From Undibacterium sp. 5I1 (GTDB lineage: Bacteria > Pseudomonadota > Gammaproteobacteria > Burkholderiales > Burkholderiaceae_D): a stretch of DNA of 64,000 nucleotides. Position 1 is the first letter of the stretch; every line of letters begins with the position of its first letter. The stretch covers positions 1,116,001 through 1,180,000 of the forward strand of contig NZ_JAVIWI010000001.1 in the NCBI RefSeq assembly GCF_034314085.1, written 5' to 3'. Under the pieces are notes generated by a model, which searched no databases, was not told where the DNA came from, and saw nothing but the letters and a program-made list of their open reading frames with translations. A program made the translations under genes and the position numbers. This document shows positions 295-52,140 of the stretch, in pieces.

Positions 295-324
295 TTGCAA
301 GATAAGTCACGGCTGAGCTATAAT
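295..324 (+). promoter_or_regulatory. Operator-promoter, copy 1 (variant)
   Basis: The palindrome variant AAGTCA-CGGC-TGAGCT (304-319) runs into TATAAT at 319-324. A weak -35 (TTGCAA, 295-300) lies 18 bases upstream. No gene starts within 590 bp downstream, but two terminators follow, so it may drive a short non-coding RNA. Confidence 0.55.
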
Positions 325-330
325 CCTGAC

Positions 331-623
331 CATATTGTTTGCCGTTATGTCCCTTGAGCCTGAAACTAGGCTTTAAACAGAGTCGGGAGTGAGTTGGTCT
401 TTTGGGGGATTTGTTCTTAAATGTGGGGTTGCCATACGCAGAGAAGCTTCTGATGTGGCCCTAGCAAGAACGAATCTCTCCTTACTTTTCTATAGCGTTG
501 TTGGCTAAGGGGGGTAAGGGGGGATTTGTTCTTTCCTAGGGTTCCTCATCAGAGGGCAGTTGTAATTCTTCTTGAATGCTGAAATTGTATCCAGAGTCCT
601 TGTAACCCAAGGACTTTTGTTTT
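331..623 (+). ncRNA. Candidate non-coding RNA, about 290 nt
   Basis: The interval lies between the promoter at 295-324 and an intrinsic terminator at 595-623. It has no ORF longer than about ten codons with a ribosome site. A short direct repeat (GGGGGATTTGTTCTT) occurs twice, near 403 and 520. A regulatory RNA or a long leader is inferred only from promoter, terminator and lack of coding. Confidence 0.35.
595..623 (+). terminator. Intrinsic terminator
   Basis: An 8-bp stem, AGTCCTTG/CAAGGACT (595-602 with 608-615), has a 5-base loop and is followed by TTTTGTTTT. Confidence 0.7.
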
Positions 624-700
624 AAAAGGCTTTGCCGAGCCGACGGGTTATTCCAAAGTTTTCTACGTACACAAGCCAAGGATTCGACGCCTTGGCTTTT
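620..700. repeat. Diverged repeat, copy A (partner at 2225-2310)
   Basis: This copy shares with 2225-2310 the order AAAGGCTT-like, GAGCxGACGG-like, then TATTCCAAAGTTTT, then GCCTTGGCT near the end. Copy A ends in a terminator hairpin; copy B has lost the T-run. They look like an old duplication of a non-coding element. Confidence 0.4.
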
Positions 701-702
701 TG
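674..702 (+). terminator. Intrinsic terminator, second of a tandem pair
   Basis: An 8-bp stem, AGCCAAGG/CCTTGGCT (674-681 with 690-697), is followed by TTTTT. Together with 595-623 it isolates whatever is transcribed upstream. From 703 to 916 I see nothing coding. Confidence 0.7.
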
Positions 703-916
703 CTTACCAGGCTACAAAAATCGTCGCCGCACTCATCCTTGGCATGCCTGATCCGGTGTGTTTGTTTGGTGATCCTAGGCTTTTACCAAATTGAATCGAA
801 CAAAACTCGAAGGCTGAGCCTAACAAAGTTCGGTTTGGCTCGTTTTAACCCGCCACGCACATGCCAATATCTTCGCTTCATACTTCATACATCGAAACAA
901 CACAACGAAAGAAGAT

Positions 917-1237
917 ATGAACCAGCACCCAAAGCAGCACCTTTATCCGATTATCGATTCAGAGTTCGGCACCCGCTTTTTTGATCAAGACTTAATATAT
1001 GCGATCCAAGAGTGTGACGACGACAGCTTTGCTGATCCGATTGTACGTCAACGGTGCGAAGACGCCGGTTTGAAGCCGATGGTCTGGTCCGAGATGTCGT
1101 TGCATGATCAGGTCATGGCGCAGATTGGTTTCGTTGCTCCACCGCCGCGTCGTGATGTATCGCCGAAAGAAGAACATGTCAGAGAAGAAGCGTGGGCGAC
1201 GAAGGTGATTGCTTCCATCAATGCATTGGGAGAATAA
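917..1237 (+). CDS. Small hypothetical phage protein (106 aa)
   Basis: I do not recognise this protein. It is acidic, with no membrane segment and no clear motif. The ATG at 917 has a GAAAGAAG ribosome site just upstream. It is the first gene of a tight run of three: the next starts 3 bases after its stop and the third 3 bases after that. Position at the left edge of element 1 suggests an accessory, early-type phage gene. Function is unknown. Confidence 0.6.
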   Translation: MNQHPKQHLYPIIDSEFGTRFFDQDLIYAIQECDDDSFADPIVRQRCEDAGLKPMVWSEMSLHDQVMAQIGFVAPPPRRDVSPKEEHVREEAWATKVIASINALGE

Positions 1238-2536: not shown

Positions 2537-2565
2537 TTGCACATAAGTCGGTACTGACTTATAAT
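2537..2565 (+). promoter_or_regulatory. Operator-promoter, copy 2
   Basis: The palindrome AAGTCG-GTAC-TGACTT (2545-2560) overlaps TATAAT at 2560-2565. A weak TTGCAC lies 17 bases upstream at 2537-2542. It would drive the 230-aa gene starting at 2634. Confidence 0.7.
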
Positions 2566-2633: not shown

Positions 2634-3326
2634 ATGTCTACAATCGCAAAAACATCGAAAGTCACAAAAGCAACTACAGCAACAACAAAAGTAGTTAAAA
2701 CACCGAAAGCGAAAAAAGCGGTAGTTGTTGCAGTCGATACAGTGCAAGCGGTAGAGCAAACATTCACTACGCGGTTCGTTGAAGTCTTACAAGCACGTAA
2801 CGCAGAGCAGTACAGCAAAGATACAGACCTTGCAATAAACGCTGTCAAGGGTAGCAAAGCGGTCGACCTTGCTATGTCAAAACCTGAATTTAAAGAAGTG
2901 GCATCCAATTTGCTTAAAAATGCGCGCATTGCAAGCAATAAACAAGATAAGTCTAATTTTATTGCGGTCAAAGTATTAGTCAAGATTGCACATTGCTTGA
3001 ATGCAATCGGTCAAAACATGAAAAGCACACTCGACCCTTATTCGCGCACAATCGCTGAAAACCTGATAGCTTTAAACGGTATCTCAAACAAGTCTTGTCT
3101 AGTATCGTTATCTCGTTCGGTAGAGTATAGCGAACTAGAGCAACAAAGCGCACTTGTAAAGCGCTATAACTGTTCAGCGAATACAGCAGGTACGCAAGCA
3201 AGCTCCACTCGCATGATGCTGCATTACTTAGATATTGCGAACGTGCAAAAATCGAAAAATGGTGACGTTATAACACTCAAAGAGAACGACCGCGCAACTA
3301 CTTTCGCAGCGCTTTTTATTAGCTAA
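2634..3326 (+). CDS. Lysine/alanine-rich-tailed hypothetical phage protein (230 aa)
   Basis: Residues 1-40 are rich in Lys, Ala, Thr and Val, with repeated KTPKAKK-like words typical of nucleic-acid-binding tails of histone H1-like proteins. Residues 45-230 look like a folded helical domain I do not recognise. The gene has its own operator-promoter (copy 2) and is followed by another operator-like palindrome and a strong terminator, so it is a stand-alone unit. A role in DNA or RNA binding is inferred from composition only. Confidence 0.65.
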   Translation: MSTIAKTSKVTKATTATTKVVKTPKAKKAVVVAVDTVQAVEQTFTTRFVEVLQARNAEQYSKDTDLAINAVKGSKAVDLAMSKPEFKEVASNLLKNARIASNKQDKSNFIAVKVLVKIAHCLNAIGQNMKSTLDPYSRTIAENLIALNGISNKSCLVSLSRSVEYSELEQQSALVKRYNCSANTAGTQASSTRMMLHYLDIANVQKSKNGDVITLKENDRATTFAALFIS

Positions 3327-3331: not shown

Positions 3332-3347
3332 ACGTCACTGCTGAGCT
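3332..3347. promoter_or_regulatory. Operator palindrome, copy 3 (variant)
   Basis: ACGTCA-CTGC-TGAGCT lies 5 bases after the stop of the 230-aa gene and just before its terminator. The following TATTTA is a poor -10. It may be a regulator site rather than a working promoter. Confidence 0.45.
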
Positions 3348-3353
3348 ATTTAT

Positions 3354-3386
3354 TACCGCTTGCGATACATGCAAGCGGTATTTAAG
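3354..3386 (+). terminator. Intrinsic terminator-like hairpin
   Basis: A perfect 10-bp stem, TACCGCTTGC/GCAAGCGGTA (3354-3363 with 3371-3380), is followed by TTTAAG. From 3387 to 3602 there is no gene; visible there are a TACGTG/CACGTA inverted repeat near 3396-3420 and a direct repeat ATCCTTATAGAA near 3522 and 3554. Confidence 0.6.
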
Positions 3387-3602
3387 TAGTTTGATACGTG
3401 CAAATATATTTTACACGTATGACGCAGAGTATGATATAATTGTGACTGAGAAGTGAAAGTCCTAGAAGAATTGCAGACCCTTGGTGGCCCTGCCTTCCTC
3501 AACTTCCGGCCTCCAAACCACATCCTTATAGAAATCCCAGGATCGCCACATGCCTATCCTTATAGAAGACAAAATATAAGACTTTGACCTCCATAAGTCG
3601 CT

Positions 3603-4466
3603 TTAATCTGAGGTAACTTTTATGCCAACAGAGTGCCATGTGACAAGAGTATATTCAAAGAACTTCTGATTCATTTCAGAGCTGCAAAGTTTAGCCAATT
3701 CTCTGCCAACGTCCGTAAACATGACCGCCCCCATTCTTAGATCATTTTCTATATCTCTGGGAAACTCCAATGCGACCGTTCTCTCGAAATACCTTAACTT
3801 GAAATGTGCGCCTTTTATCTTTAAATTATATCCATTATTAACGCCAAGTGTGACTAGGCCGATTACGTCGAGATGTTGCAGGCTTTTATAATCAAGACCG
3901 CTTTTGGTATAAATATCATTCGTTATATCAAAAACTACTGGCGATATTTCATCATCGAAAGTCCAAGCATACTGACATAGGCTATTGAATAAGGCCGCTT
4001 CAGTTTTATTCAACATTGAGACTAAATTAATTGTTCTCTTTGAAAATGTTCCAGGCGACGTAGCTTCACCCGCTAGTAACTTAGCCCAAAGAGATTGCAT
4101 TTCCTCGTCTGAGACGATATCGCAATGTTTGAAAAAATGGCTAATCCAATCGTTATCCATTTCTTCAGGCTTGGCGTCAGGTGGAAGCATTTCGATAGCA
4201 GAGGCTAAAATAGCCTCGATATTTTTCTGGCTCTTTTCTCGCTGTTTAATAAATGTAGAAATAGCCCTTTCTTGTATTTCGGTAAGCTCAATTTGAGATT
4301 TCAGCTCAATCTTATTTGCTTCGGCCTGCGCTTTAGCGATACGTATAATTTGATAAGGTTCAGCGACCATACCAATGGCGCTACTGACTTTTTCTATCAA
4401 AACTGGCCCCATTTTTGAGAGCGGCACTGCTAATGAGCCAAGAATGGCGCCTGTTACCGGGTCCAT
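3603..4466 (-). CDS. DUF2806-type protein, possible phage-encoded defence or exclusion gene
   Basis: The 287-aa product has a hydrophobic N-terminus (GAILGSLAVPLSKMGP), a charged helical stretch (residues about 45-80) and a core with DDWISHFF, SDEEMQSLWAKLLAGEA and SPGTFSKRTINLV. These words match the DUF2806 family as I know it. The ATG at 4466 has a GGAG ribosome site. It stands alone on the minus strand between plus-strand units and looks more AT-rich than its neighbours, like an acquired accessory gene. The biochemical function is unknown; a defence or exclusion role is inferred only from this setting. Confidence 0.7.
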   Translation of the reverse strand: MDPVTGAILGSLAVPLSKMGPVLIEKVSSAIGMVAEPYQIIRIAKAQAEANKIELKSQIELTEIQERAISTFIKQREKSQKNIEAILASAIEMLPPDAKPEEMDNDWISHFFKHCDIVSDEEMQSLWAKLLAGEATSPGTFSKRTINLVSMLNKTEAALFNSLCQYAWTFDDEISPVVFDITNDIYTKSGLDYKSLQHLDVIGLVTLGVNNGYNLKIKGAHFKLRYFERTVALEFPRDIENDLRMGAVMFTDVGRELAKLCSSEMNQKFFEYTLVTWHSVGIKVTSD

Positions 4467-4647
4467 ATTTTCTCCAATTAAATAAATTGAAATTCATTTT
4501 AGCATTTGGTAAAAGTCAACGCTTTAATCTCAGATTGCCATTAATGAAAGTCGCTAACTAGCAGGCTTTCAAAATTTGATCACACCTCCGACGACTACAA
4601 TCCACCTGAAATGCGGGTGTCCGTGTTCACGATAATGGGGAATCACG

Positions 4648-5280
4648 ATGATCTTTGGAGTCTTAAATCAAAAAGGTGGGGTTGGCAAAACAACCTTATC
4701 AATCAATCTGGCGGCGGAGCTGGCGCGTTATGGGGAACGTGTACTGGTGATCGATGCAGATCCACAACAGAGCGCAACCGCCTGGCAAGCGCAACGTTTT
4801 GCAGAGCCACTATTCGTCGTCGTGGGGAAACCTACCGCGACCATTCATAAAGAAATCGACATGATGAGTAAAGGCTATGATCAGGTCATCATTGATGGAC
4901 CTGCCAGAGTAACCGACATGACGCGCTCCGCGATTATGGCTTGTGATGTTGTGATCGTGCCGGTGCAGCCGTCACCCTATGATGTCTGGGCCAGCGAGGA
5001 GGTAATCAAGCTCATTCAGGAAGCGGTCGTGTACAAGGAAAAGCTGAAATGCTGCATTGTGATTAATCGCAAAATCGCAAACACAGCCATCGGGCGCGAT
5101 GTACGAGAAGCGCTGGCGACCTACGGCGTTAAGGTGTTGAACGCTTCCGTGACGCAACGCGTTGCATTTGCAGAAGCGGCAGCAGAGGGCAAGACCGTGT
5201 ATGAGGTGGACGAAGGTAGCCAGGCGTCAATAGAAATGGCAGATTTACTACATGAGCTGATGGAGTTTGCAAATGAGTAA
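4648..5280 (+). CDS. parA: ParA-type partition ATPase
   Basis: This 210-aa protein is a deviant Walker-type ATPase: KGGVGKTT near residues 9-16 (P-loop with the signature lysine), VIDADPQQ near residue 38, and IIDGPA near residue 78. Such proteins use ATP-dependent DNA binding to segregate low-copy plasmids. The length fits the small ParA class that works with ribbon-helix-helix partners, and exactly such a gene overlaps its end by eight bases. The ATG at 4648 has a GGGG ribosome site. It looks more GC-rich than its neighbours. Partition genes on a phage suggest a plasmid-like lifestyle now or in the past. Confidence 0.88.
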
Positions 5281-5497
5281 GAAGATTAGTTTTGGAACTC
5301 GCGCAACCTTACCGACGCCAGATCAGTGGGTAGAGAGCAAGCAGGTTGTCGTAGTGGAAGCAGAACCGACCAAGCGACTGACATTGGATCTACCTAAGTC
5401 GCTACATGGTCGATTTAAGGCGGCTTGTGCGCTTAGTGGAGAGTCAATGTTGGAGGTTATTTTGAAGCACCTTGAGGAGAAATACCCTCCAGGCTAG
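5273..5497 (+). CDS. Ribbon-helix-helix partner of ParA (ParG/CopG-like)
   Basis: The 74-aa product has an unstructured N-terminal arm and a C-terminal [20 protein letters not shown] segment typical of a ribbon-helix-helix: a beta strand of alternating residues and then two helices. Proteins of this type bind the centromere, repress the partition operon and stimulate ParA. Its ATG overlaps the stop of parA, so the two are translationally coupled. It converges with and overlaps the 117-aa gene on the other strand by about 40 bases. The centromere site is not identified. Confidence 0.75.
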
Positions 5498-5810
5498 GCT
5501 TCTCAAAGAGTAGTTGCGCTCGCCATGTCTGGGCAGAAGCTTTGCCAAATACGTCAAGCTCTAGTCCAGACAGAATGATGAACTCGGCGCCCATGTGAAT
5601 GACCGCTGCGTCTACCAGTGGAGGAATTAAGTCTTGATTGGCAGAGCCATGTGAGACATCGTATAGGTTCGCCTGGTGAAGTCGGCGACGTAGAAGAGGG
5701 TTCTTACACTCACCGAATGCAAGCTCGCCCAGAACCGGATAGACCATCGAGTGACGCCATTTAGGAATTAGCTTACCGTCTTCCCACAGTCTAGTCACCC
5801 AAGCTTTCAT
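5457..5810 (-). CDS. SOS-controlled small phage protein (117 aa), possible antirepressor
   Basis: I do not recognise this protein family. The start at 5810 is chosen because GAGGCG sits at ribosome-site distance; an upstream frame continues but would run through the promoter. Directly upstream is a near-consensus LexA box overlapping the -10, so expression should rise after DNA damage. In temperate phages such genes include antirepressors (for example Tum of phage 186), but no homology is claimed. The last 41 bases overlap the end of the ParG-like gene. Confidence 0.65.
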   Translation of the reverse strand: MKAWVTRLWEDGKLIPKWRHSMVYPVLGELAFGECKNPLLRRRLHQANLYDVSHGSANQDLIPPLVDAAVIHMGAEFIILSGLELDVFGKASAQTWRAQLLFEKPSLEGISPQGASK

Positions 5811-5837
5811 ATTCGCCTCATTTAAATCACTTGGCGA

Positions 5838-5861
5838 ATTATACTGTGAATATATACAGTA
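5838..5861 (-). promoter_or_regulatory. LexA (SOS) box over a minus-strand promoter
   Basis: TACTGT-N8-ACAGTA at 5842-5861 is a full palindrome. It differs from the E. coli LexA consensus at only two bases of the N8 centre. On the minus strand the -10 TATAAT (5843-5838) overlaps it and leads to the 117-aa gene starting at 5810. Confidence 0.8.
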
Positions 5862-5862
5862 G

Positions 5863-6129
5863 TTACCAGATCTCCGCAAATTGAGTCGTCGGGACATCTT
5901 GAGAGATTGGCTTCATGTCTTGGTCAAGCTCAACCCACATGCCAGAAGCCACGCGAGCAACGACGCCAGCAATTTGCTGATCGAGAGTGTGGTTATTCTT
6001 GCTTTTTCTAAGCTCCACAGTGCCGTCGTCATAGTGATGAAAGAATTGAAGGTCTTTCGTCACTTCGAGCCACTTGATCGTGTTCGGAAAATGCAGACCT
6101 TCTTTATACGTAAAGAAGCGGGAAGGCAT
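5863..6129 (-). CDS. Hypothetical protein (88 aa)
   Basis: The start at 6129 overlaps the stop of the upstream 63-aa gene (TAATG), which supports translational coupling and this start. The soluble product has mixed strands and helices and several Trp and His residues. No family is recognised. It ends just before the LexA-box promoter of the next gene. Confidence 0.6.
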   Translation of the reverse strand: MPSRFFTYKEGLHFPNTIKWLEVTKDLQFFHHYDDGTVELRKSKNNHTLDQQIAGVVARVASGMWVELDQDMKPISQDVPTTQFAEIW

Positions 6130-6320
6130 TATTTTTTTACAAACATTGAACCGATTATTATGAGCGCAATAAAAAAAATCATTACGTAGCCAAACCAACG
6201 CACGAATTTAAGTGGAGCCTTGTCCAGTTCGGTCTTGTCGGGTCGAGCGTTGTATTCTCTCGATTTTTTAATTGCCCCAATAATTGCGAAAATGACAATG
6301 ATGATAAATAGAAAGTGCAT
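6129..6320 (-). CDS. Small two-helix membrane protein (63 aa)
   Basis: Residues 1-16 (MHFLFIIIVIFAIIGA) and 43-60 (FGYVMIFFIALIIIGSMF) are strongly hydrophobic and predicted to span the inner membrane, with a charged loop between. It is coupled to the downstream 88-aa gene and lies 10 bases after the regulator-like gene upstream. Function is unknown; small phage membrane proteins often act in exclusion or lysis timing, but nothing here proves either. Confidence 0.6.
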   Translation of the reverse strand: MHFLFIIIVIFAIIGAIKKSREYNARPDKTELDKAPLKFVRWFGYVMIFFIALIIIGSMFVKK

Positions 6321-6330
6321 ATTATTTTCC

Positions 6331-6618
6331 TTATTGTTTAGCAGACATTTGTTCGATTAGAGCGATTTGCTCCGGTGACAGCTTTCTCAGTTTGGCAAAG
6401 CTCATCTTGCGTTGCTCACGTTGGCTTACCTTATTCTCACGAACGGCAAAGAATTTTGGCGCCAGATCAGCCATTACATTGTCATTACCGATATGGTCGA
6501 TCAAAACTTCCAGCACTTCTTGCTGACTGATTTTGAACTCCTTGGCAATGCCAGCTAAGCGCTCCTGCTTATCTTTGGTCATGATGATGGTGTAGCGTGT
6601 TGTTTCTTTTTCTGTCAT
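6331..6618 (-). CDS. Small DNA-binding-like regulator candidate (95 aa)
   Basis: The product begins MTEKETTRYTIIMTKDKQERL, a strand followed by helices in the style of ribbon-helix-helix or other small regulators, then a basic C-terminal half. The start at 6618 has a GGAGAATG ribosome site; an upstream in-frame ATG at 6651 lacks one. It heads the minus-strand small-gene cluster, with a TATAAT on the minus strand about 35 bases upstream. It is a candidate, among others, for the regulator of the repeated operator. Confidence 0.55.
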   Translation of the reverse strand: MTEKETTRYTIIMTKDKQERLAGIAKEFKISQQEVLEVLIDHIGNDNVMADLAPKFFAVRENKVSQREQRKMSFAKLRKLSPEQIALIEQMSAKQ

Positions 6619-6682
6619 GGCATTCTCCGTGTAGTTTATGGACAAGTGCATTATAGCTGACGTGCATTAGTTAAATTAACGT

Positions 6683-6708
6683 AAAAAAAAGCCCCCAAGT
6701 TGGGGGCT
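6683..6708 (-). terminator. Intrinsic terminator (minus strand)
   Basis: The AGCCCCC/GGGGGCT stem (6690-6696 with 6702-6708), read on the minus strand, ends in eight T residues. It should end transcription of the helicase gene before the small-gene cluster. Confidence 0.75.
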
Positions 6709-6724
6709 GGAGAACAAAAATTCG

Positions 6725-8575: not shown

Positions 8576-9232
8576 ATGTTACCAACACCTCAACAGTCGT
8601 TCGCCGATCCAAAGACGTTAATTCCTAACCCTTGGAATACCAACGTAGTATCGCCCGACAACGAAGCCAAGATTGACGAAAGCTTGCGTCGCTTCGGCAT
8701 GTTCAAACCTATTGTAGTGCGGACGTTACCGAACGGAACCTTGCAAATTCTTGGGGGCGCGCATCGGCGCGACTCCGCTATTCGTCTTGGTATGAAATCC
8801 GTACCGATCATCAACGTAGGCGAGGTTGACGACAAGCACGCCAAAGAGATAGGGCTGGTTGATAACGGGCGATACGGCGATGACGACACCTTACAGCTTG
8901 CCGCACTGTTGGAAGACCTTGGCACACCTGAAGACCTGTCTAAGTTCATGCCGTACACCGATAGCGACTTCGCCTCAATCTTCGCCAGCGTCAACATCGC
9001 CTTAGATGACCTAGATTTGCCTGAAGACGACGAATCGACATCACCCAAGCTACCGGCAGAGCGTCAAGTCCAGACTCACCAAATCATGCGTTTCAAAGTG
9101 CCAGCAGGCGATGTGGCAACAATTACAGACGCCATTGAAAAGACGATGAAGTCGCAGAAATTCACAGACGAAGACTCGCTCTCTAATGCTGGCAATGCGC
9201 TGGTACACATTTTTAGAGGCATTGAGGTCTGA
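8576..9232 (+). CDS. ParB/Srx-fold protein 1
   Basis: Residues about 8-100 form a ParB N-terminal-like domain: LIPNPWNTN, then LRRFGMFKPIVVR, the GGAHRRDSA loop (the CTP/ATP- or DNA-contacting region in this fold) and LGMKSVPI. The C-terminal half is acidic and unrecognised. There is no ParB-type helix-turn-helix, so this is not a simple plasmid ParB. It opens an operon with a second ParB-like protein, a zinc ribbon, an ABC ATPase and a GNAT. The expected transcript start coincides with its ATG, and no ribosome site is visible. Confidence 0.8.
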   Translation: MLPTPQQSFADPKTLIPNPWNTNVVSPDNEAKIDESLRRFGMFKPIVVRTLPNGTLQILGGAHRRDSAIRLGMKSVPIINVGEVDDKHAKEIGLVDNGRYGDDDTLQLAALLEDLGTPEDLSKFMPYTDSDFASIFASVNIALDDLDLPEDDESTSPKLPAERQVQTHQIMRFKVPAGDVATITDAIEKTMKSQKFTDEDSLSNAGNALVHIFRGIEV

Positions 9233-9233: not shown

Positions 9234-9440
9234 ATGAGCGACAGCGTCAAAGGCAAAGGGTTCGATCAATGCGCGGACTGCGTGAACGCGGAATATGACC
9301 CTTTCCAATGCAAAAAGTGCAAAGAGGGCAGCAGATTTGAGCCGTTTAACTCCACCGATTGCGAAGATGAGCCGGACGACGACGCCGACACGTCTGGTTA
9401 CAAGACCGTAAAGACATTTTTCTCCAAGAAAGACCTGTAA
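9234..9440 (+). CDS. Small zinc-ribbon-like protein (68 aa)
   Basis: Two cysteine pairs (CADC near residue 13 and CKKC near residue 26) are spaced as in a zinc ribbon, with a further Cys near 43; an acidic stretch follows. It starts one base after the ParB-like gene and ends on the first base of the second ParB-like gene, so it is embedded in the operon. It may bridge the ParB-like proteins to DNA or another partner; that is inference. Confidence 0.65.
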   Translation: MSDSVKGKGFDQCADCVNAEYDPFQCKKCKEGSRFEPFNSTDCEDEPDDDADTSGYKTVKTFFSKKDL

Positions 9441-10108
9441 TGGAAAACCAAGTAACAGTAAAGCCGCGAATTGAAATCTGGGACATCAGTCGCGTTATTC
9501 CTTACGAGTTAAACGCAAAAATTCATGATCTTGTGCAGATAAAGCGCATCGCTAAGTCCATTAAAGATTTTGGTTTTGATCAACCGATCGTTGTCGATAA
9601 AAACGGCGTCATTATTAAAGGACATGGTCGTCGTGGAGGCGCTGAATACCTAGGCATGAAACAAGTGCCGGTATGGATTCGTGACGATCTTACTGACGAT
9701 CAGGTGCGCGCATCCCGCCTAGCTGATAACCGTGTTGCCATATCCAATTTGGATACAGACATTCTGCAAAAAGAGCTGGCCAGCCTTAATTTTGACTTAG
9801 TTGGAATCTTTGACGCTAAAGAGCTGGACTTCGTCATTGCTGACTTAGGCGAGATCGATACAAGCGCCTTTGTAAATGACTTAGACGGCGCTATCCAAGA
9901 TCAGGCAGATGAGACCGCTAAGACATTAGAAGAGTCCACTCAGCGCGCTGTACGCATTGACAAGGCCCTGGGCTTTAAAACGATCAATGGCAAAGATGAG
10001 CGTGCTGTGGCGATGTTTATGGCGCAATTGGAAACAGAGTCAGGATTGCCCGCAGACAAAGCGTTTGTGGAATTTGTTCGTTCGTTTGATCAAAAAACTA
10101 CGTCATAG
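9440..10108 (+). CDS. ParB/Srx-fold protein 2
   Basis: Residues about 10-105 repeat the ParB N-terminal pattern: VIPYELNAK, IAKSIKDFGFDQPIVVD, the GHGRRGGAEYLGM loop and VPVWIRDDL. It is a distant paralogue of the first protein of the operon, not a recent copy. Proteins with this domain next to phage packaging genes are often linked to DNA modification or nuclease functions. No helix-turn-helix is obvious. Its ATG overlaps the preceding stop, indicating coupling. Confidence 0.8.
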   Translation: MENQVTVKPRIEIWDISRVIPYELNAKIHDLVQIKRIAKSIKDFGFDQPIVVDKNGVIIKGHGRRGGAEYLGMKQVPVWIRDDLTDDQVRASRLADNRVAISNLDTDILQKELASLNFDLVGIFDAKELDFVIADLGEIDTSAFVNDLDGAIQDQADETAKTLEESTQRAVRIDKALGFKTINGKDERAVAMFMAQLETESGLPADKAFVEFVRSFDQKTTS

Positions 10109-15413: not shown

Positions 15414-15441
15414 TTGACATACGTCAGTAGTGACTTATAAT
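15414..15441 (+). promoter_or_regulatory. Operator-promoter, copy 7 (portal operon)
   Basis: This is the clearest promoter of the set: TTGACA (15414-15419), a 16-base spacer made of the palindrome ACGTCA-GTAG-TGACTT (15421-15436), and TATAAT (15436-15441). The portal ATG begins 6 bases after the -10, so the transcript should be leaderless. Confidence 0.8.
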
Positions 15442-18033: not shown

Positions 18034-18061
18034 TTGAAATAAGTCACCACTGACTTTACAT
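18034..18061 (+). promoter_or_regulatory. Operator-promoter, copy 8a (capsid)
   Basis: TTGAAA (18034-18039), a 16-base spacer containing AAGTCA-CCAC-TGACTT (18041-18056), and TTACAT (18056-18061). Confidence 0.65.
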
Positions 18062-18085: not shown

Positions 18086-18101
18086 CAGTCATCGGTGACT
18101 T
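18086..18101 (+). promoter_or_regulatory. Operator palindrome, copy 8b (capsid)
   Basis: A second copy, CAGTCA-TCGG-TGACTT, lies 45 bases after copy 8a and 52 before the capsid ATG. It has no clear -10 of its own. Two sites this close may allow cooperative binding at the capsid promoter. Confidence 0.6.
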
Positions 18102-19074: not shown

Positions 19075-19095
19075 CAGTCAGTAGTGACTTATAAT
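19075..19095 (+). promoter_or_regulatory. Operator-promoter, copy 9
   Basis: CAGTCA-GTAG-TGACTT (19075-19090) joins TATAAT (19090-19095). It drives the neck gene group starting at 19142 and overlaps the terminator behind the capsid gene. Confidence 0.75.
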
Positions 19096-19097
19096 AG

Positions 19098-19122
19098 AAG
19101 GCGGGAGCAATCCCGCCTTTTT
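19098..19122 (+). terminator. Capsid-gene terminator overlapping the next promoter
   Basis: A 9-bp stem, AAGGCGGGA/TCCCGCCTT (19098-19106 with 19111-19119), runs into TTTTT. The expected start from promoter copy 9 (about 19102) lies inside the left arm, so its own transcript lacks much of the hairpin while read-through from the capsid gene would form it fully. Confidence 0.75.
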
Positions 19123-19141
19123 CATATTCAGAAAGGAATAC

Positions 19142-22590: not shown

Positions 22591-22614
22591 AAGTCAGTAG
22601 TGACGTATTTATAG
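22591..22614 (+). promoter_or_regulatory. Operator-promoter, copy 10 (tail tube)
   Basis: AAGTCA-GTAG-TGACGT at 22591-22606 is followed by TATTTATAGT, which offers a -10 near 22609. It precedes the tail tube gene by about 35 bases. Confidence 0.6.
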
Positions 22615-28634: not shown

Positions 28635-28663
28635 TTGATAAGTCAGTAGTGACTTAGTATAAT
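28635..28663 (+). promoter_or_regulatory. Operator-promoter, copy 11 (tail tip)
   Basis: TTGATA (28635-28640), a 17-base spacer containing AAGTCA-GTAG-TGACTT (28640-28655), then TATAAT (28658-28663). The ATG at 28672 lies 8 bases after the -10, so a leaderless or nearly leaderless transcript is expected. Confidence 0.75.
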
Positions 28664-36753: not shown

Positions 36754-36781
36754 AAGTCATTACTGACTTATTTATGATAAT
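36754..36781 (+). promoter_or_regulatory. Operator-promoter, copy 12 (tail fibres)
   Basis: AAGTCA-TTAC-TGACTT at 36754-36769, with GATAAT at 36776-36781 as the likely -10. The fibre gene starts 30 bases further on, with a GGTGGA ribosome site. Confidence 0.6.
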
Positions 36782-40830: not shown

Positions 40831-43350
40831 ATGAGTGGTGCATTAGATTACGTAAATAACCTGGCGATTAAAAACTCAGGCTTGCCGATTGGCGCGCAAG
40901 TGACGATGGCTGGCACAAACTCGTCCGTTTTTACGGCGCCAAGTGGAGAGGTTTTTGTAAAGAATAGTATTGCGGCGGTTATTCCTGCCTCGCAGTGTAA
41001 CTCGCTGCTTCCCGCCTTAATGAATGCCGTCAACGACATCACATTTCCGACTACGATTAAAGTAGATTTAACGACATTTGGCAGCTCAGTATCGGGCATA
41101 CCTAGTTTGTTTAGTGCCAGTAGAGCTGTGGGCGGTACGACAACTTTAGTCCCGTCTATTGGCGTGTACGCTAACTCAACTTACTATTTGTTTAGTCCTA
41201 ATGTAGCTAATCTTGGCTCAAATATTGGCTATACATCCACAACCGATCAAGCCTTCTTCACGGCGAAAAAATCAATACCGCAGCTTGCTGGACTAACTAT
41301 TGTTGACGTGAAATTCGTCAATGGCGTTTGGTATTTCATTGACTCCTCTGGCTATATTGCCAGCATGACTGATTTATCAGGTTCAAACTTCACGATCATA
41401 CAAACGGTCATGATGCCGAATGCCGCCTCTTATGGTTATACGGGAGCGGCCTACATTAATGGTGTTTGGTACTTGTACGGTAGTTCTCGCACAGGATATT
41501 CAGCAGGTAGCATCATAGTTCGATCGACCGATATGGTGACATGGACAATCATATCTGAAGTCACTAGCGGCTCTGCGCCAATTACTAGCCTTTGCCAAGG
41601 ATCTGGGACGACAACTACTACTGAAATTATTGCTGGTTGCTTGGGCGGCGATTACATCTTTAAGTCTGTCAATAACGGCACCACCTTTACGCAAGTTTCT
41701 GCATTTTCAGGCAAGTCGTATATTCGGTCAGTTTTCTACTCGACGCGCACGAGCAAATATTATGCGGTTGCGGCTGACACCAATCTAAATCTGTATCTTT
41801 TAACCAGCAGCACAGGCACGTTGGCTACCGCAACATTTACGTCTTTGTTAATAGGCGCAATATCCGATTACGGTTCGCCTGGTTACGGTATAGCAACCAT
41901 CGTTGATACAGGCACAAATGTCGGAATAGTCTACTCGAACGGCTCTGCCGTGTTTGGATATAACAATGCCGGCAGCGCCGCTAACGTAACCATTACGAAC
42001 GACTTAAACACAGGCGTCGTATCGGGAAGTTATCTTTCTTGTCTGGCACTAACGATGAACGGCAATATTTGGGTGCTTGTTTGTCAATCAGGCTCAATCA
42101 CGGCATCACAGATGAGCGGCAAACAACTGATTTTAGTTTCCGGCCCTACATTAGCAACAGCTTCAAAGATGCTTTGGTTTCCAACTACTCAAGCTAACTT
42201 CACGCCGCCTGCTGCAATTAGTGGTGTTCAGTATTCGGTAGTGACGGGTCTATCTTATGATTCCGCCAATAACTTTTCAAATTTGTATAAATTCGGCACA
42301 AATTTTGCGAGCATAGCGCTTGCAAGCAATACGGTATTAAGTCAAAACTACTCAGGCTATGTTTTTACCGGAATTGGAAGTATGTTCGCGGCACCTTCTT
42401 TACTTCAGCCAGGCGTGTTGACATGGACTGGCATTAATAATGTTAGCAATAATGTGGTTACAACATTGAAGTATGACGGCACGACGTTTAGCGCCAGTCA
42501 ATTAAATGGTGCCGCTCCTTATCCCGCCGGAAACGCTCAGCTTGCCGACTCAAGCGATGTTGGGTGTACTGCATTCGCCGCAAAATGGAGTTCTCTATTT
42601 TCGGCCTATTTGTATAGCGGCTCTATTTCGACAACCGGATCAAGTGCGGCGATGACTGTGCTAAAAGCGGCAACGCTTGGAGGCGCGTCATCGAATGTAT
42701 ATACACTAGGAGAAACTAATTCTAGTTACCACGGATGGATGTATTTTTTGGATGTTTTGTCGGGTGGGCAGGGGATTATGGGATACACCCAAAATACTGG
42801 GAATGGTCCTTACGCCGGATTGACAATTTTGACTCCAACGGCGAATTATCTTATTCCGCTGTCAGGCATTCCAAGTATAAATACCTGCTATTTATCCGCT
42901 TATGATATTACGGGAACAGATGGCAATCGTTATTTAGCGGTCGTTTATGCTTTAACGGGAGGAGGAACTCCGACAAATGGTCAGTTCTTGTCCGTGTTTC
43001 GGATTTTTACTAATTCTGCCCCCGTTTGCGTGCTGAATACCAGCATCGCTGGCTATTTAGGATTCAACACTTCTTCCAAAATGCGTCGTGTTGTTGCGAC
43101 CGGCAATAACTTCTATTTGTGCGACTTCACCTCTGGCACATCGACTAAAAACGCTTTATTGCTTACGCAATCAGGAGGCGCATTTTCGTTTGCAGGGGCC
43201 GCTTATTGCAATTTGCCAACAGACAATGTGCCATCAGGCGTCGCAGGCATTACAGGCTCTTTTAACTCTGCGACGGTTGCTGCAACCAGCGCCACCGCAG
43301 CAGTGTACTTACCTCCCGCCACAAGTGGAAACTACGTGAAAGTGAAATGA
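40831..43350 (+). CDS. Receptor-binding tail protein with beta-propeller-like repeats (839 aa)
   Basis: After about 90 residues the sequence shows repeats of the form FVNGVWYFIDSSG and NGVWYLYGSSRTG followed by RSTDMVTWTII, typical of sialidase-like or Kelch-like propeller blades. No catalytic set for a sialidase is seen, so binding rather than cleavage is likely. It starts directly at the stop of the long fibre gene and probably attaches to or follows it. Confidence 0.7.
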   Translation: MSGALDYVNNLAIKNSGLPIGAQVTMAGTNSSVFTAPSGEVFVKNSIAAVIPASQCNSLLPALMNAVNDITFPTTIKVDLTTFGSSVSGIPSLFSASRAVGGTTTLVPSIGVYANSTYYLFSPNVANLGSNIGYTSTTDQAFFTAKKSIPQLAGLTIVDVKFVNGVWYFIDSSGYIASMTDLSGSNFTIIQTVMMPNAASYGYTGAAYINGVWYLYGSSRTGYSAGSIIVRSTDMVTWTIISEVTSGSAPITSLCQGSGTTTTTEIIAGCLGGDYIFKSVNNGTTFTQVSAFSGKSYIRSVFYSTRTSKYYAVAADTNLNLYLLTSSTGTLATATFTSLLIGAISDYGSPGYGIATIVDTGTNVGIVYSNGSAVFGYNNAGSAANVTITNDLNTGVVSGSYLSCLALTMNGNIWVLVCQSGSITASQMSGKQLILVSGPTLATASKMLWFPTTQANFTPPAAISGVQYSVVTGLSYDSANNFSNLYKFGTNFASIALASNTVLSQNYSGYVFTGIGSMFAAPSLLQPGVLTWTGINNVSNNVVTTLKYDGTTFSASQLNGAAPYPAGNAQLADSSDVGCTAFAAKWSSLFSAYLYSGSISTTGSSAAMTVLKAATLGGASSNVYTLGETNSSYHGWMYFLDVLSGGQGIMGYTQNTGNGPYAGLTILTPTANYLIPLSGIPSINTCYLSAYDITGTDGNRYLAVVYALTGGGTPTNGQFLSVFRIFTNSAPVCVLNTSIAGYLGFNTSSKMRRVVATGNNFYLCDFTSGTSTKNALLLTQSGGAFSFAGAAYCNLPTDNVPSGVAGITGSFNSATVAATSATAAVYLPPATSGNYVKVK

Positions 43351-43971: not shown

Positions 43972-43995
43972 AAGTCACTACTGACTTGATTTAAT
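43972..43995 (+). promoter_or_regulatory. Operator-promoter, copy 13 (lysis genes)
   Basis: AAGTCA-CTAC-TGACTT at 43972-43987 is followed by GATTTAATG, a moderate -10. It precedes the holin-like gene by about 65 bases. Confidence 0.6.
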
Positions 43996-44055: not shown

Positions 44056-44409
44056 ATGAACACAGAATTTGAAATACAAGGATATGAAATGCCCCCAAAT
44101 TCGACAGCGCTAGAGCAGCAAATGGCAGAAGTGCGTATCAGTGTGGGAAAGATGGCAGACGCTTTGACTAAGTTAGCCATTCTTGAAGAGCGCCATCAAG
44201 CAACGATTGCGCGTGTCGCCAAGATGGAAGACCGCATCATTGATGTCGCCAAAAAAAGTAACGACATGGAGCTTGCGCAAGTGCGGCATTTCGCGACCCT
44301 GGACGGCATCACAAGCACCATTCGCGTCTTGTGGGTAGTGGTCGGCACCACCTCCATCACTTTTATTGGCAAATTTGTAATGAGCTTTTTACATGTGGGA
44401 GCCATATAA
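44056..44409 (+). CDS. Coiled-coil protein with C-terminal membrane span, holin-associated type
   Basis: Residues 15-85 are a coiled coil (ALEQQMAEVRISVGKMADAL), and residues about 88-112 are one membrane span (IRVLWVVVGTTSITFIGKFV). This is the layout of XhlA-type lysis accessory proteins. It is the first gene after operator copy 13 and is followed three bases later by the lysozyme. Holin or holin partner is inferred from layout and place. Confidence 0.65.
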   Translation: MNTEFEIQGYEMPPNSTALEQQMAEVRISVGKMADALTKLAILEERHQATIARVAKMEDRIIDVAKKSNDMELAQVRHFATLDGITSTIRVLWVVVGTTSITFIGKFVMSFLHVGAI

Positions 44410-44411
44410 AG

Positions 44412-44891
44412 ATGAATTTTGATATTTGCGTATATCGGCTTCTGGGTAACGAAGGCCGTTACGTCAACGATTCGCGAGACCCAGGCGGTGAAACAAATTG
44501 GGGTATTTCCAAGCGAAGCTACCCATCATTAGATATTAAAAATCTGACGAAGGCACAAGCTGCTGCAATCTACAAGCGAGATTTTTGGGACCCTATTCAG
44601 CTAGATAAAGCACCACTAGGCGTCGCAAACCAGTTACTTGACTTCGCTGTCAATAGCGGGCTACAGACGGCTATTCGCGCCTTGCAACGAGCTGTAGGCG
44701 TTGCCGATGACGGCATTCTTGGTAACTACAGCAAGCAAGCAATCGCCAAGATGCAACTGCACGACATCATCATGCGGCTAATTGCAGAGCGAATCTTGTT
44801 CATGACTAACTGCAAAAATTGGGATTCTGCCGGTAAAGGCTGGATGCGCCGCATTGCACACCAACTTCAATATGGAGCTGACGATGTTTGA
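44412..44891 (+). CDS. Endolysin, GH108 N-acetylmuramidase
   Basis: The 159-aa protein has the GH108 signature: NEGRYVNDSRDPGGETNWGI near residues 13-32, with the catalytic Glu in EGRY, then YPSLDIKNLTKAQAAAIYK and DFWDPIQLDK. The C-terminal half holds a peptidoglycan-binding-like segment (AVGVADDGILGNYSKQAI). It hydrolyses the glycan backbone of peptidoglycan at lysis. It lacks a signal peptide, so a holin is required; its end overlaps the next gene. Confidence 0.9.
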   Translation: MNFDICVYRLLGNEGRYVNDSRDPGGETNWGISKRSYPSLDIKNLTKAQAAAIYKRDFWDPIQLDKAPLGVANQLLDFAVNSGLQTAIRALQRAVGVADDGILGNYSKQAIAKMQLHDIIMRLIAERILFMTNCKNWDSAGKGWMRRIAHQLQYGADDV

Positions 44892-47099: not shown

Positions 47100-47137
47100 T
47101 TTAGCCAAAATAAAGTCTCTTTTCATATTGTTAGATA

Positions 47138-47158
47138 AGTCACCGCTGAGTTATAGTA
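47138..47158 (+). promoter_or_regulatory. Operator-promoter, copy 14 (PhoH)
   Basis: AAGTCA-CCGC-TGAGTT (47138-47153) joins TATAGT (47153-47158), with TTGTTA 18 bases upstream. The PhoH gene starts 32 bases downstream. Confidence 0.65.
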
Positions 47159-47189: not shown

Positions 47190-47927
47190 ATGTCACGTAA
47201 CTTTGCAAAGAAACAATCTAAACGCTCATCCAACAAGCAAGAATTTCAAGATCAATCCATTGATCAGCGCTTTCACAAGATTCCAGACAAAATTGATCGT
47301 TCACCGATCACAGCATTAAAACCCAAGCAGCAGCAGTACATTAACGCCATTAAAAACTTTGACGTTACGTTCGCAACTGGACCTGCCGGCACTGGTAAAA
47401 CCTACCTATGCGCAGCTCTAGCAGCACAGGAGCTTGACGCAAAGCGCATTGACAAGATCATCATTACTCGACCGGCAGTCGAAGCCGGAGAATCGTTAGG
47501 TTTTTTACCAGGCGAATTAGAAGAAAAGTTTGATCCATATCTCACACCATTCCGCGAGATATTAGATTTACGCCTAGGTAAAACATTTGTTGACTACTTG
47601 ATTAAGAACAAGCGTATCGAGGCGGCTCCATTAGCGTTCATGCGTGGTCGTACCTTCACAAACGCTTGGGTGATTTTAGACGAAGCGCAAAACACCACAC
47701 CGATGCAGATGAAGATGTTCCTGACTCGTATCGGCAAAGGCTGCAAGATGATTATTAATGGCGACGTTGACCAAAAAGACATCCCAGGCAAAAGCGGATT
47801 GGCGGACGCAATTGGGCGATTCAATCACATACCAGCAATTAAGCATGTGAAGTTCGATCGTGAAGATTCAGTCCGTCATGATTTAGTTCAAGATATTCTC
47901 TTGGGTTACGAAACAGAACCAGTGTAG
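47190..47927 (+). CDS. PhoH-like ATPase
   Basis: The 245-aa protein carries the PhoH layout: GPAGTGKT near residue 66 (Walker A), TRPAVEAGESLGFLPGEL near 105, VILDEAQNTTP near 168 (Walker B), and INGDVDQKDIPGKSGL near 193. PhoH proteins are P-loop NTPases with RNA-helicase-like folds common in tailed phages; the phage role is not settled. It forms its own unit, with an operator-promoter before it and a terminator after it. Confidence 0.9.
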   Translation: MSRNFAKKQSKRSSNKQEFQDQSIDQRFHKIPDKIDRSPITALKPKQQQYINAIKNFDVTFATGPAGTGKTYLCAALAAQELDAKRIDKIIITRPAVEAGESLGFLPGELEEKFDPYLTPFREILDLRLGKTFVDYLIKNKRIEAAPLAFMRGRTFTNAWVILDEAQNTTPMQMKMFLTRIGKGCKMIINGDVDQKDIPGKSGLADAIGRFNHIPAIKHVKFDREDSVRHDLVQDILLGYETEPV

Positions 47928-48091: not shown

Positions 48092-48802
48092 ATGACACAC
48101 CCAATTAATATCGAGTTTTATGGCTCACAAGTCGGTTTCGACGAATGCGAAGTATTGGCCATTCAGAATATACATCACAAGCTTCTGATAAAAGAGGCGG
48201 CACTGTTCTCTAAAAAATGGTTTGACTACCGCTCAATGCATCCAACATTAGCGACTTACCTAGCGGTACATCACTACAACCGCGCTTATGGCTATTTTAT
48301 GGGCGTAGCGATGGACAAAGGTAAGAAATACATGGCCGGCTTTCGCGGCAAAGACTTCATGCTTTCACGCGAAAAGCAATCCTTCTGGAAATTAAGGCAG
48401 CAAGCGGACGACACCGGAATACGATACGACTTCTTTATGTTGGAGGCGATGAAGTGGTGTATCGAGAACGGCTGGAGACAACCGCCGCGTCCAGCTCATA
48501 TTTCAACGAATAATGACTTACTTATACAGGTAATGAATAAGTGGGAAATGGAAAGCAGGGCGAAGATTCAGTGGGCGACAGACTGTCGTTATCGCGCAGA
48601 GCTATTTGTTGGATCGCCAGACCAGCTCGCCTATGAGAATCATATTGCCACTCGCATCATGCAAAAGCCACATCCAAAATTCGCAATCTATGCAGCGCTG
48701 TACCAATATGACGCGCTTCGCATTGAGGAAGCGTTAAGACGTTTCCCTACCGAGACAATTAATGACGCTATGCATGTTTCCGTGATTTTCAGTCAAAAGT
48801 AA
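48092..48802 (+). CDS. Hypothetical phage protein (236 aa)
   Basis: I do not recognise this family. The protein is soluble, rich in aromatic and basic residues (YLAVHHYNRAYGYFMGVAM; YMAGFRGKDFM), with a long helical second half. The start has a GAGGCG ribosome site. It lies between PhoH and the Hfq-like gene. The leader upstream resembles the one before 13097 (CTTGGG words, then CTATAAATAC), hinting at a second promoter type. Confidence 0.6.
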   Translation: MTHPINIEFYGSQVGFDECEVLAIQNIHHKLLIKEAALFSKKWFDYRSMHPTLATYLAVHHYNRAYGYFMGVAMDKGKKYMAGFRGKDFMLSREKQSFWKLRQQADDTGIRYDFFMLEAMKWCIENGWRQPPRPAHISTNNDLLIQVMNKWEMESRAKIQWATDCRYRAELFVGSPDQLAYENHIATRIMQKPHPKFAIYAALYQYDALRIEEALRRFPTETINDAMHVSVIFSQK

Positions 48803-48821
48803 GTCACAACTGAACTATAAT
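48801..48821 (+). promoter_or_regulatory. Operator-promoter, copy 15 (Hfq-like/helicase operon)
   Basis: AAGTCA-CAAC-TGAACT (48801-48816) joins TATAAT (48816-48821). It sits immediately after the preceding stop and drives the Hfq-like, helicase and primase genes. Confidence 0.7.
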
Positions 48822-48861: not shown

Positions 48862-49362
48862 ATGACCCCAGTTTCATCATCCGAAGTCCAAGCTAAACGT
48901 CTGCGGGAAGAGCAAATCGAAGAAGGGCGACGAATGGCAGTATCCAACTCAACAGATGAGTCGGCACCTGAATCAAGTAATCGCACAACGATTAGTCTTC
49001 CGTTCGGCAGCGTTCGCCCTAACTCAGCGACGTTAGAGCATTCAGTTTGGAAAGGCGATTCCAAAGAATCAGTGAAGCGCTACACGCCGGCAAAAGTGCC
49101 AAACAAAGTTCCGCTCAAGGGTCATGAAGCGTTTTTGAAAGCGCTTGAAATCAACAACGCCACAGTGCGTATTGAAAAGGCATCGACGGGAGAAATTATT
49201 GTTGGACGAGTAAAGCACTCTGATAAGTTTAGCGTCACGATTAATGCGCCAATCGCTTCAGCAGATTTTTTGTCTAATGTTACTCCAATTGACCGCGTCA
49301 TATTCAAGCATGACATCAGCGAATTTGCGGCACTGACACCTAAGTCGGAATCAGCGCAATGA
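48862..49362 (+). CDS. Hfq-like (Sm-fold) phage protein (166 aa)
   Basis: Residues 1-80 are a charged, probably flexible N-terminus (KRLREEQIEEGRRM). Residues about 89-160 follow the Hfq plan: GHEAFLKALEINNATVRIEK (helix and first strand), GEIIVGRVKHSDKFSVTI (Sm1), and RVIFKHDISEF, matching the YKHAIS word of bacterial Hfq (Sm2). The Sm1-Sm2 loop is longer than in host Hfq. It may bind RNA or redirect host Hfq. The gene overlaps the helicase gene by four bases, so it is tied to replication-gene expression. Confidence 0.68.
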   Translation: MTPVSSSEVQAKRLREEQIEEGRRMAVSNSTDESAPESSNRTTISLPFGSVRPNSATLEHSVWKGDSKESVKRYTPAKVPNKVPLKGHEAFLKALEINNATVRIEKASTGEIIVGRVKHSDKFSVTINAPIASADFLSNVTPIDRVIFKHDISEFAALTPKSESAQ

Positions 49363-50813: not shown

Positions 50814-50971
50814 TGAACATTAGCTGCGTTTTATTGGTGGCTTACTTGAGCCTAATGGTGGGTCGTGCATTCGCTGACGGAGTTGGCACCGCTCTCGTAT
50901 TTTTGCTGTGCTTGGGCATTCCAGCCTTGCTCGGCGTGTTGGCGGGTCTTAGCTTTAAAAAGCGTCACTAG
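50813..50971 (+). CDS. Small membrane protein between helicase and primase (52 aa)
   Basis: Two hydrophobic segments make up most of the product (residues about 3-18 VLLVAYLSLMVGRAFA and 26-46 ALVFLLCLGIPALLGVLAGL), with a basic end. Its ATG overlaps the helicase stop (TAATG), and the primase ATG follows one base after its stop. A membrane link for the replication machinery is possible but unproven. Confidence 0.6.
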   Translation: MNISCVLLVAYLSLMVGRAFADGVGTALVFLLCLGIPALLGVLAGLSFKKRH

Positions 50972-50972
50972 C

Positions 50973-52046
50973 ATGCGTTCTGACAGAGGCGATCTCAATG
51001 AGGCGATTGCTTCTCTCGACATGGAATACTGGCTTGACCGTGAGGGCGTGAACTACAAACACACTCGCGGATCAAGCGGTCGCCAGGCTAACGTAAAAGA
51101 GTGCCCTTGCTGCGGTAACTCCAAGTGGAAGGTCTACATTGGTCTTGAGTCGGGCTTAGGCAATTGCTTCGTCTGTGAGCAGAAATTTAGTCGTTGGGGG
51201 TTCATTCAGAACTACCTTGGCTTGTCGAATGTAGATACGGTCAACCATATCTTCGCGGCAGCAAAAGATCAAGGTTGGAGACCGCCACGCGTAACGTCGG
51301 TCGCAACATCGAACACAAATAAGCTTGCTTTGCCAGCATCGATCGCGTTGCCACATAACGGTCGCAATATGAAGTATTTGGAGAATCGCGGCATTACTAG
51401 CTCGATTGCGTCCTATTTTGGATTGCGTTACTCGCATGAGGGAAAGTTTAAATACAGGAATGATGATGGCAAAAGCATGGTTCAAGACTATGCCAAGCGA
51501 ATCATTATTCCTATCTTTGATTTAGAAGGCGATCTGGTCAGTTTTCAAGGGCGAGATATCGCCGGCGACGCAGAGAAGAAGTATTTATTTCCACCTGGAT
51601 TTTCGTCAACTGGAACGCAGCTTTATAACGGACAAAACGCCATCGGTGCGGAGCATGTAGTAATCGGCGAAGGTGTGTTTGACGTGGCAGCGACCAAGAT
51701 TGCGCTTGATGGCGATATGAAGTTGCGTGACGTAGTGCCGGTCGGAAGCTTCGGTAAGCATTTGTCGCATGGAGATAACGAGAGTCAGCTAGGCAAGCTC
51801 ATGACGTTAAAAGAGCAAGGCTTAAAGTTCGTTACATTCATGTGGGACGGCGAGGACAAAGCGATTGATGCGGCGGTAGAAGCGGCGCTGATTGTGCATA
51901 AGTTTGGTCTGACGGCGCGAGTAGCAATTCTGCCAAAAGATAAAGATCCTAACGAAGTGGCGCCTTCGGTTGTTCGTGCTGCTTTTTGGCAAGCCGAGAC
52001 AATTAATGCAGGCGTGGCGACGCGGTTACGGTTAAAGAAAAGGTAG
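50973..52046 (+). CDS. DNA primase (zinc-binding plus TOPRIM)
   Basis: The 357-aa protein has an N-terminal zinc ribbon (CPCCGN near 38 and CFVC near 61) and a T7-type primase/TOPRIM core: KRIIIPIFDLEGDLVSFQGR, the TOPRIM Glu in VVIGEGVFDVAA near 232, and the acidic FMWDGEDKA near 289. It makes RNA primers at the fork. Start is ATG 50973. Fork helicase and primase are separate genes here, unlike T7 gp4. Confidence 0.88.
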   Translation: MRSDRGDLNEAIASLDMEYWLDREGVNYKHTRGSSGRQANVKECPCCGNSKWKVYIGLESGLGNCFVCEQKFSRWGFIQNYLGLSNVDTVNHIFAAAKDQGWRPPRVTSVATSNTNKLALPASIALPHNGRNMKYLENRGITSSIASYFGLRYSHEGKFKYRNDDGKSMVQDYAKRIIIPIFDLEGDLVSFQGRDIAGDAEKKYLFPPGFSSTGTQLYNGQNAIGAEHVVIGEGVFDVAATKIALDGDMKLRDVVPVGSFGKHLSHGDNESQLGKLMTLKEQGLKFVTFMWDGEDKAIDAAVEAALIVHKFGLTARVAILPKDKDPNEVAPSVVRAAFWQAETINAGVATRLRLKKR

Positions 52047-52065
52047 TTTCGGCTATCTTTAAAAT

Positions 52066-52081
52066 AAGTCATAACTGACTG
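52066..52081 (+). promoter_or_regulatory. Operator palindrome, copy 16, with an extra half-site
   Basis: AAGTCA-TAAC-TGACTG is followed by GTTAAAG, a weak -10. A separate half-site (TGACTTATAG, 52110-52119) lies closer to the next gene. Confidence 0.55.
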
Positions 52082-52140
52082 TTAAAGCCTGAATCTGGTC
52101 AATATACTGTGACTTATAGAGAAAACTAAGCGAGGGCTAA

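Follow-up and report, generated by a model that had tools for sequence, protein, structure and literature searches.

A repeated operator-like dyad at the promoters of an SSU5-type prophage in Undibacterium, with a small CI-like protein as candidate repressor

An integrated prophage of about 105 kb, of the SSU5 phage-plasmid type, carries one symmetric dyad, (T)AAGTCA-N4-TGACTT(A), in or beside the -35/-10 spacer of many promoters that appear to be of the sigma-70 type, replication and structural genes alike. It is most likely, and we hold this with considerable confidence, that a single 158-aa repressor encoded by the element would bind every dyad as a dimer and so keep nearly the whole prophage silent.

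The dyad in the window and across the prophage

The stretch of DNA analysed, here called the window, comprises 64 kb (G000:C1:1116001-1180000) of a 4.88-Mb genome. Scored as AAGTCA-N4-TGACTT (16 bp) with up to two mismatches, the dyad is matched 19 times in the window where 2.9 matches are expected, and none of 100 shuffles reached 19. The first-pass annotation had listed 17 copies, all of which were found on reading the sequence; 16 of its coordinates are exact, and the copy placed at 47138 starts one base earlier, at 47137. Six sites are perfect (8549, 13397, 18041, 28640, 36754 and 43972), the site at 3332 has three mismatches and hence falls outside the two-mismatch list, and three further matches in that list (9831, 45982 and 57696) all lie inside genes and look like chance. 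The last of these is the one exception to the annotation's statement that copies are absent from 57-64 kb. The promoter singled out there, TTGACA-16-TATAAT at 15414, is exact, whereas at several of the element's sites the -10 or the -35 is indistinct. The features discussed below are as follows (window coordinates unless marked C1).

304..319, plus: operator-promoter site, AAGTCACGGCTGAGCT + TATAAT; 15.7 bits, intergenic, with 597 bp to the next called gene
2545..2560, plus: operator-promoter site, TTGCAC-17-TATAAT; 21.8 bits
3332..3347, plus: weaker operator-like site directly after gene 2634-3326, at the left edge of an operator-free stretch; 15.8 bits
6725..6740, unstranded: operator-like site lying 73 bp ahead of a gene on the minus strand (6331-6651), at the right edge of the operator-free stretch; 16.6 bits
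8549..8564, unstranded: perfect operator with divergent genes on either side and a promoter-like -35/-10 pair on both strands; 24.7 bits
13397..13412, plus: perfect operator upstream of gene 13505-14164 (DNA-binding family phrog_867; small terminase by position)
15421..15436, plus: operator in the spacer of TTGACA-16-TATAAT, upstream of portal; border site in 59/77 related loci (best 80 of 97)
18041..18056, plus: perfect operator, the first of two ahead of the major capsid gene; border site in 51/71 related loci, doubled in 19 (best 80 of 97)
18086..18101, plus: second operator of the capsid pair, 45 bp further
19075..19090, plus: operator-promoter, then directly a GC hairpin and T run
22591..22606, plus: operator upstream of gene 22643-23158
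28640..28655, plus: perfect operator upstream of minor tail gene 28672-29304
36754..36769, plus: perfect operator upstream of tail fibre gene 36811-40830
43972..43987, plus: perfect operator upstream of 44056-44409 and an endolysin-type gene (Glyco_hydro_108), 44400-44891
47137..47152, plus: operator upstream of phoH-like gene 47190-47927
48801..48816, plus: operator-promoter upstream of 48862-49362 and a helicase gene
52066..52081, plus: operator upstream of WGR-type gene 52141-52611
5842..5861, minus: LexA (SOS) box, TACTGTATATATTCACAGTA
5457..5813, minus: 118-aa gene that follows the LexA box, proposed as an SOS-induced antirepressor; weak relatives in 2/27 records, no Pfam family
57026..57077 (C1:1173026-1173077), plus: attR, 52-bp copy of the tRNA-Cys 3' end
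G000:C1:1068063-1068114: attL, matching 52-bp repeat

Allowing no more than one mismatch, the genome as a whole has 36 matches, of which 21 are packed into about 2% of the genome (C1:1069829-1168066), together with all eight perfect dyads. The resulting density is about 0.2/kb in the element against 0.003/kb outside, a 64-fold difference, and a reversed control pattern gives 15 matches across the genome, as many as the real pattern has outside the element. The annotation's claim therefore withstands comparison with shuffled and host sequence, in neither of which the motif is equally frequent. A symmetric weight matrix trained on the 17 window sites, used at a threshold of 12.5 bits, finds 38 sites in the whole element, 20 of them left of the window and hence outside the training stretch, and with the fixed matrix the host flanks hold none. 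The window sites are real, but the series that the annotation took to span the element covers only about half of it, since the element extends a further 48 kb to the left.

That nearly all copies lie between genes is borne out by 36 of the 38 matrix sites, in an element that is about 89% coding (binomial p ~5e-33); this count uses our own gene calls with four doubtful ORFs dropped, and becomes 35 of 38 if one of those, a 75-aa ORF at 1110591-1110818, is a gene. Of the 36 counted as intergenic, two fall in the final 18 bases of a gene, and another two share 2-3 bases with one. The annotation's further statement that the copies face downstream genes is correct for 31 of the 36, which lie at most 100 bp upstream of a gene start, mostly on the plus strand, and fails for those at 304, 3332, 1102872, 1110476 and 1110563. 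Tolerated substitutions are symmetric (CAGTCA/TGACTG, ACGTCA/TGACGT), and at arm position 5 the ratio of C to A in this element is 34:0. At 19075-19125 of the window, and at C1:1093092 and C1:1094787, operator-promoters are directly followed by GC-rich hairpins, where either the transcript would begin with a stem-loop or an upstream terminator overlaps the promoter.

The element is inserted at a tRNA-Cys gene between the two 52-bp att repeats, a chromosomal location that sets it apart from SSU5-type phage-plasmids. Its portal is closest, among named phages, to that of Salmonella phage SSU5 (59.6% identity over 83%), and its head-packaging genes are homologous to those of the SSU5 group and stand in the same order, terminase-portal-scaffold-capsid; with SSU5, Cyrano, pJN2-26 and the Rhizobium relatives it has this order, a portal that is 53-60% identical and the dyad family in common. 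The families found in it (terminase, portal, scaffold, capsid, tape measure, DnaB-type helicase, primase, ligase, ParA and two ParB-like proteins) fit a siphophage. Its left end holds the integrase gene (1068291-1069475), an excisionase-like HTH gene and the 158-aa HTH gene; the integrase gene has no dyad upstream and the excisionase-like gene has one.

Conservation in related phages

Related loci were taken from viral contigs, and the counts in this paragraph refer to the best 80 of 97. At 14 bits the matrix derived from the window detects at least one site in 60 of the 80 loci, where 0-0.2 are expected, and among the 20 without a site at least six (L045, L048, L061, L066, L070 and L074) carry an altered dyad. 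Gene borders were scored with a second matrix that allows A or C at arm position 5, and loci whose contig misses a given border leave its denominator. A site was found upstream of the small terminase in 54 of 62 loci and after the capsid in 50 of 69, and the borders upstream of portal and capsid are conserved to the extent listed above, while three control windows placed inside coding genes gave 0/64, 0/80 and 0/77. At the portal sites a -10 matching at least five of six positions is present in 29 of 61 (0.7% in the control) and a -35 of the same quality in 33 of 61 (4.6% in the control), with a spacer whose mode is 17 bp (29 of 52). As the GC content of the loci ranges from 41 to 68%, composition alone does not explain this conservation.

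Forms of the dyad altered symmetrically in both arms occur in distant lineages (AAGTAA-N4-TTACTT, CAATCA-N4-TGATTT, A(A/G)GTAA). The arm reads AAGTCA in the element described here, AAGTAA or AGGTAA in enterobacterial phages, and AAGTAA or CA(A/G)TCA in Rhizobium phages. An unbiased tally of dyads in eight loci of annotated phages has the motif as sole top entry in three (L086, L090 and L092), a shifted form of it on top in L088 and ties in L087 and L091; in L089 and L093 it is not on top, yet the fixed matrix finds nine and eight sites there, respectively, against at most one in shuffles. Three loci with a portal identity of 61-63% (L025, L027 and L028) have 0-1 dyads; they are fragments of 31-59 kb without a repressor match, and therefore neither help nor hurt the reading of the dyads as repressor sites.

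In the phages nickie, hairong, BUCTxx99 and ANB28 no dyad was found in the 17-41 kb scanned around the portal, nor any relative of the candidate repressor. These phages bear on the proposal that the dyads are partition or packaging (parS-like) sites of ParB-like proteins, which the element would seem to invite with its two ParB-like genes (8576-9232 and 9440-10108 of the window), its one ParA gene (4648-5280) and its many scattered dyads. Annotated ParB-like pairs are nevertheless present in nickie, hairong and BUCTxx99, whose scanned stretches are free of dyads, and the dyads are fused to promoters, so that we regard a partition or packaging role as very improbable.

A candidate repressor and its rivals

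The protein proposed to read the dyads (158 aa, G000:C1:1070135-1070611, minus strand) is encoded next to the excisionase and the integrase. It matches CI-like regulators (phrog_8, E 1.6e-9) and, below the curated cut-off, Pfam HTH_3 (E 8e-4), and is thus assigned a DNA-binding domain of the CI/XRE kind. A search of Pfam at E <= 0.1 returned HTH families only and no S24 peptidase domain, the C-terminal domain that marks the autocleaving LexA/CI class, and the protein should therefore not be cleaved as LexA and lambda CI are. No PDB chain was matched at E <= 1 in a sequence search. The predicted structure of a relative (L095) is helical with a mean pLDDT of 60, and its 385 weak Foldseek matches, 434 Cro and P22 c2 among them, include none at E <= 0.001 (the best being 0.026), for which reasons only the fold class is drawn from the model.

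Searching with the 158-aa protein by tblastn yielded 20 phage records, 19 of them from Rhizobium, Klebsiella and Escherichia phages. A profile built from seven relatives (A2) detects the family in 24 of 28 records (all but SSU5 and three fragments), and in 4 of 15 others, where nickie, hairong, BUCTxx99, ANB28 and seven fragments gave no match; the family is also present in B1VFA, pJN2-26, N1_10 and the element itself. Records of at least 90 kb were checked for both the protein and the dyads, and 31 of these 36 carry the repressor family; the set counts Magnetospirillum G025 once with G010 (the same contig) and omits the remaining tblastn matches, several of which are near-copies of phages already counted. 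Among the 31 records with the repressor, 30 contain more sites by the fixed matrix than any of their 20 shuffles. The exception is Ancylobacter, with the repressor and one site (shuffle maximum 1), where six dyads of the form AAGTGA...ATACTT stand at known borders, recognised only after the fact. In six named phages the repressor gene adjoins cobT-cobS and int or repC. A sigma-70-like protein behind cobT/cobS-like genes, as at L082:14510-15274, is found in many relatives. A site lies within 500 bp upstream of the repressor gene in 14 of 27 phages, in keeping with autoregulation in some of them. The relative in Cyrano is named a putative repressor, and its transcription in the lysogen is 10-fold above background (PMC9928086, Table 1).

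A dyad that fills the spacer of a good sigma-70 promoter occupies the textbook position for repression by exclusion, and we infer that a dimer of the XRE-type protein on each dyad would block RNA polymerase, which would leave nearly the whole prophage silent under one repressor. The first-pass annotation had proposed a single dimeric regulator for all sites, and the symmetric substitutions, the position in the sigma-70 spacer and the conserved, co-occurring CI-like HTH protein support it.

Alternatively, the dyads could be sequences at which a phage sigma-70-like factor, or another conserved transcription factor, acts to switch genes on during infection, as promoter or activator elements. A sigma-70-like protein is indeed encoded close by (G000:C1:1074510-1075274; phrog_351, below the Pfam cut-off) and has relatives in 18 of 27 records, and in more with a profile; moreover, the dyad is conserved at late structural genes, and immunity operators usually diversify. 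However, Cyrano, pJN2-26, SSU5 and G011 have dyads without a detectable sigma relative, BUCTxx99 and ANB28 have a weak sigma relative (E 1.5e-9) and no dyads, the dyad promoters already match sigma-70 at both -35 and -10, and symmetric dyads suit a dimer and not a sigma factor. An activating role is accordingly judged improbable.

It is likewise unlikely that the dyads are operators of some other regulator, of host or phage, with the XRE protein acting only as a local switch. The case for it comes from SSU5, which has 15 dyads (at most three in shuffles) without a repressor detectable by the A2 profile; in its stretch from the gene end at 41776 to the gene start at 42761, where Cyrano has an integrase and the repressor, only a tRNA is annotated. 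It also draws on the weakness of an apparent covariation of protein and dyad, in which a recognition-helix residue goes with the base at arm position 5, K or R with at least 81% C (13 of 13 phages) and N with a majority of A (7 of 7). Only two or three independent changes on the tree underlie this pattern, and portal columns fit it as well (3 of 513, against 1 of 130 in the repressor); it is confounded by descent and counted as weak. By analogy with 434, the covarying residue should instead touch the outer bases. Against another regulator, the matches outside the element are no more numerous than in the reversed control and give no sign of a host regulon, and the XRE family accompanies the dyads from enterobacterial to Rhizobium phages.

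Returning to the 158-aa repressor, nickie, hairong, BUCTxx99, ANB28 and SSU5 are presumably virulent, as they lack it and were isolated as phages. The losses would amount to two or three events and not five, since the first four form two lineages by host.

Induction may depend on a LexA-controlled antirepressor made in the SOS response. The LexA box TACTGTATATATTCACAGTA lies 28 bp before the 118-aa gene, whose product may be such an SOS-made antirepressor. A weak relative in G002 (34%, with one TAG read through in the match) has a LexA-like box with one mismatch directly before it, Cyrano has a perfect LexA box before an S24 gene, and a LexA-like box is present somewhere in 5 of 12 records searched. 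Such boxes also stand just before the integrase genes of OV696614 (Cyrano, 41044-41063) and MZ779062 (pJN2-26, 88946-88965).

The 118-aa gene lies in a stretch (3348-6724) in which the matrix finds no operator, together with parA and a DUF2806 (Abi-alpha-like) gene, as would be expected if these genes serve the dormant prophage. The DUF2806 gene (3603-4466, minus strand), with a weak Abi_alpha match, is a possible prophage defence gene. In Cyrano, the block CYRAN_26-30 around parA is free of dyads, and the expression data of PMC9928086 show transcription of four of its five genes in the lysogen; judged by eye, this block is the only part of those data that fits repression. Over the Cyrano lysogen as a whole the test was null, expressed genes being no poorer in dyads than silent ones: dyads precede 2 of 9 expressed and 20 of 68 silent genes (p=1.0; same data, after 46 of 123 genes with too short an upstream gap were set aside).

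Known systems and implications

Networks in which one repressor serves many scattered operators are known from P1 C1 and L5, and the element resembles them in having 38 matrix sites with the host at background. The first-pass comparison with mycobacteriophage L5 is apt in function, as L5 and its cluster A relatives also have one repressor and about 30 sites across the whole genome. In form it is less so: the L5 stoperators are asymmetric 13-mers, many of them inside transcribed stretches, where they stop transcription, whereas the sites described here are symmetric 16-bp dyads at promoters and not one-orientation sites inside operons. Phage P1 is equally close, being a phage-plasmid whose C1 repressor acts on many operators at many promoters, although the P1 operators are asymmetric. 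The CI-type repressors of lambda, P22 and 434 share with the candidate the XRE helix-turn-helix, dyads with a little-conserved centre and the phrog_8 match; unlike lambda-type CI, it is short, lacks a detected peptidase domain and would face about 36 operators and not six. The element and its SSU5-type relatives, SSU5 excepted, have the repressor family in common. What is described here is thus a symmetric, promoter-embedded version of the one-repressor network, with a named candidate reader and conserved in the SSU5-type phages examined. For phage-plasmids, the portion consulted of a review (PMC11652158) names other regulators. The word 'operator' is absent from the consulted text of PMC11652158 and PMC9928086, and since literature coverage was narrow no priority is claimed.

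A broader and more tentative proposal, which we think may well be wrong in part or whole, is that of a frozen operator code. A small non-cleavable repressor tied to about 30 promoter-embedded dyads per genome would hardly have drifted in specificity, because one protein must recognise all of them, despite a divergence to 25-32% identity between the element and the named phages and hosts in different proteobacterial classes. SSU5-type phages would then form a very wide immunity family in which specificity changes only by concerted symmetric shifts of all sites, lysogeny is left by joint loss of repressor and dyads, and induction runs through a LexA-controlled antirepressor. If one repressor does serve all the dyads, with or without such a code, this would give (i) a simple, testable wiring diagram for phages and phage-plasmids of 100-120 kb, with one repressor and about 30-36 operators, (ii) a class of promoter recognisable from its sequence, with a prediction of the genes expressed in dormancy, and (iii) a natural case of how transcription-factor specificity evolves when tied to dozens of sites.

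Beyond the prophage, past a tRNA-Leu at 57145, another integrase gene (57437-58459) is taken to open a second element. With it, within 57437-63253 of the window, are a reverse transcriptase (58731-60152, minus strand) and an Lcl_C-domain protein (60522-61136, minus strand), a set that recalls the composition of a diversity-generating retroelement.
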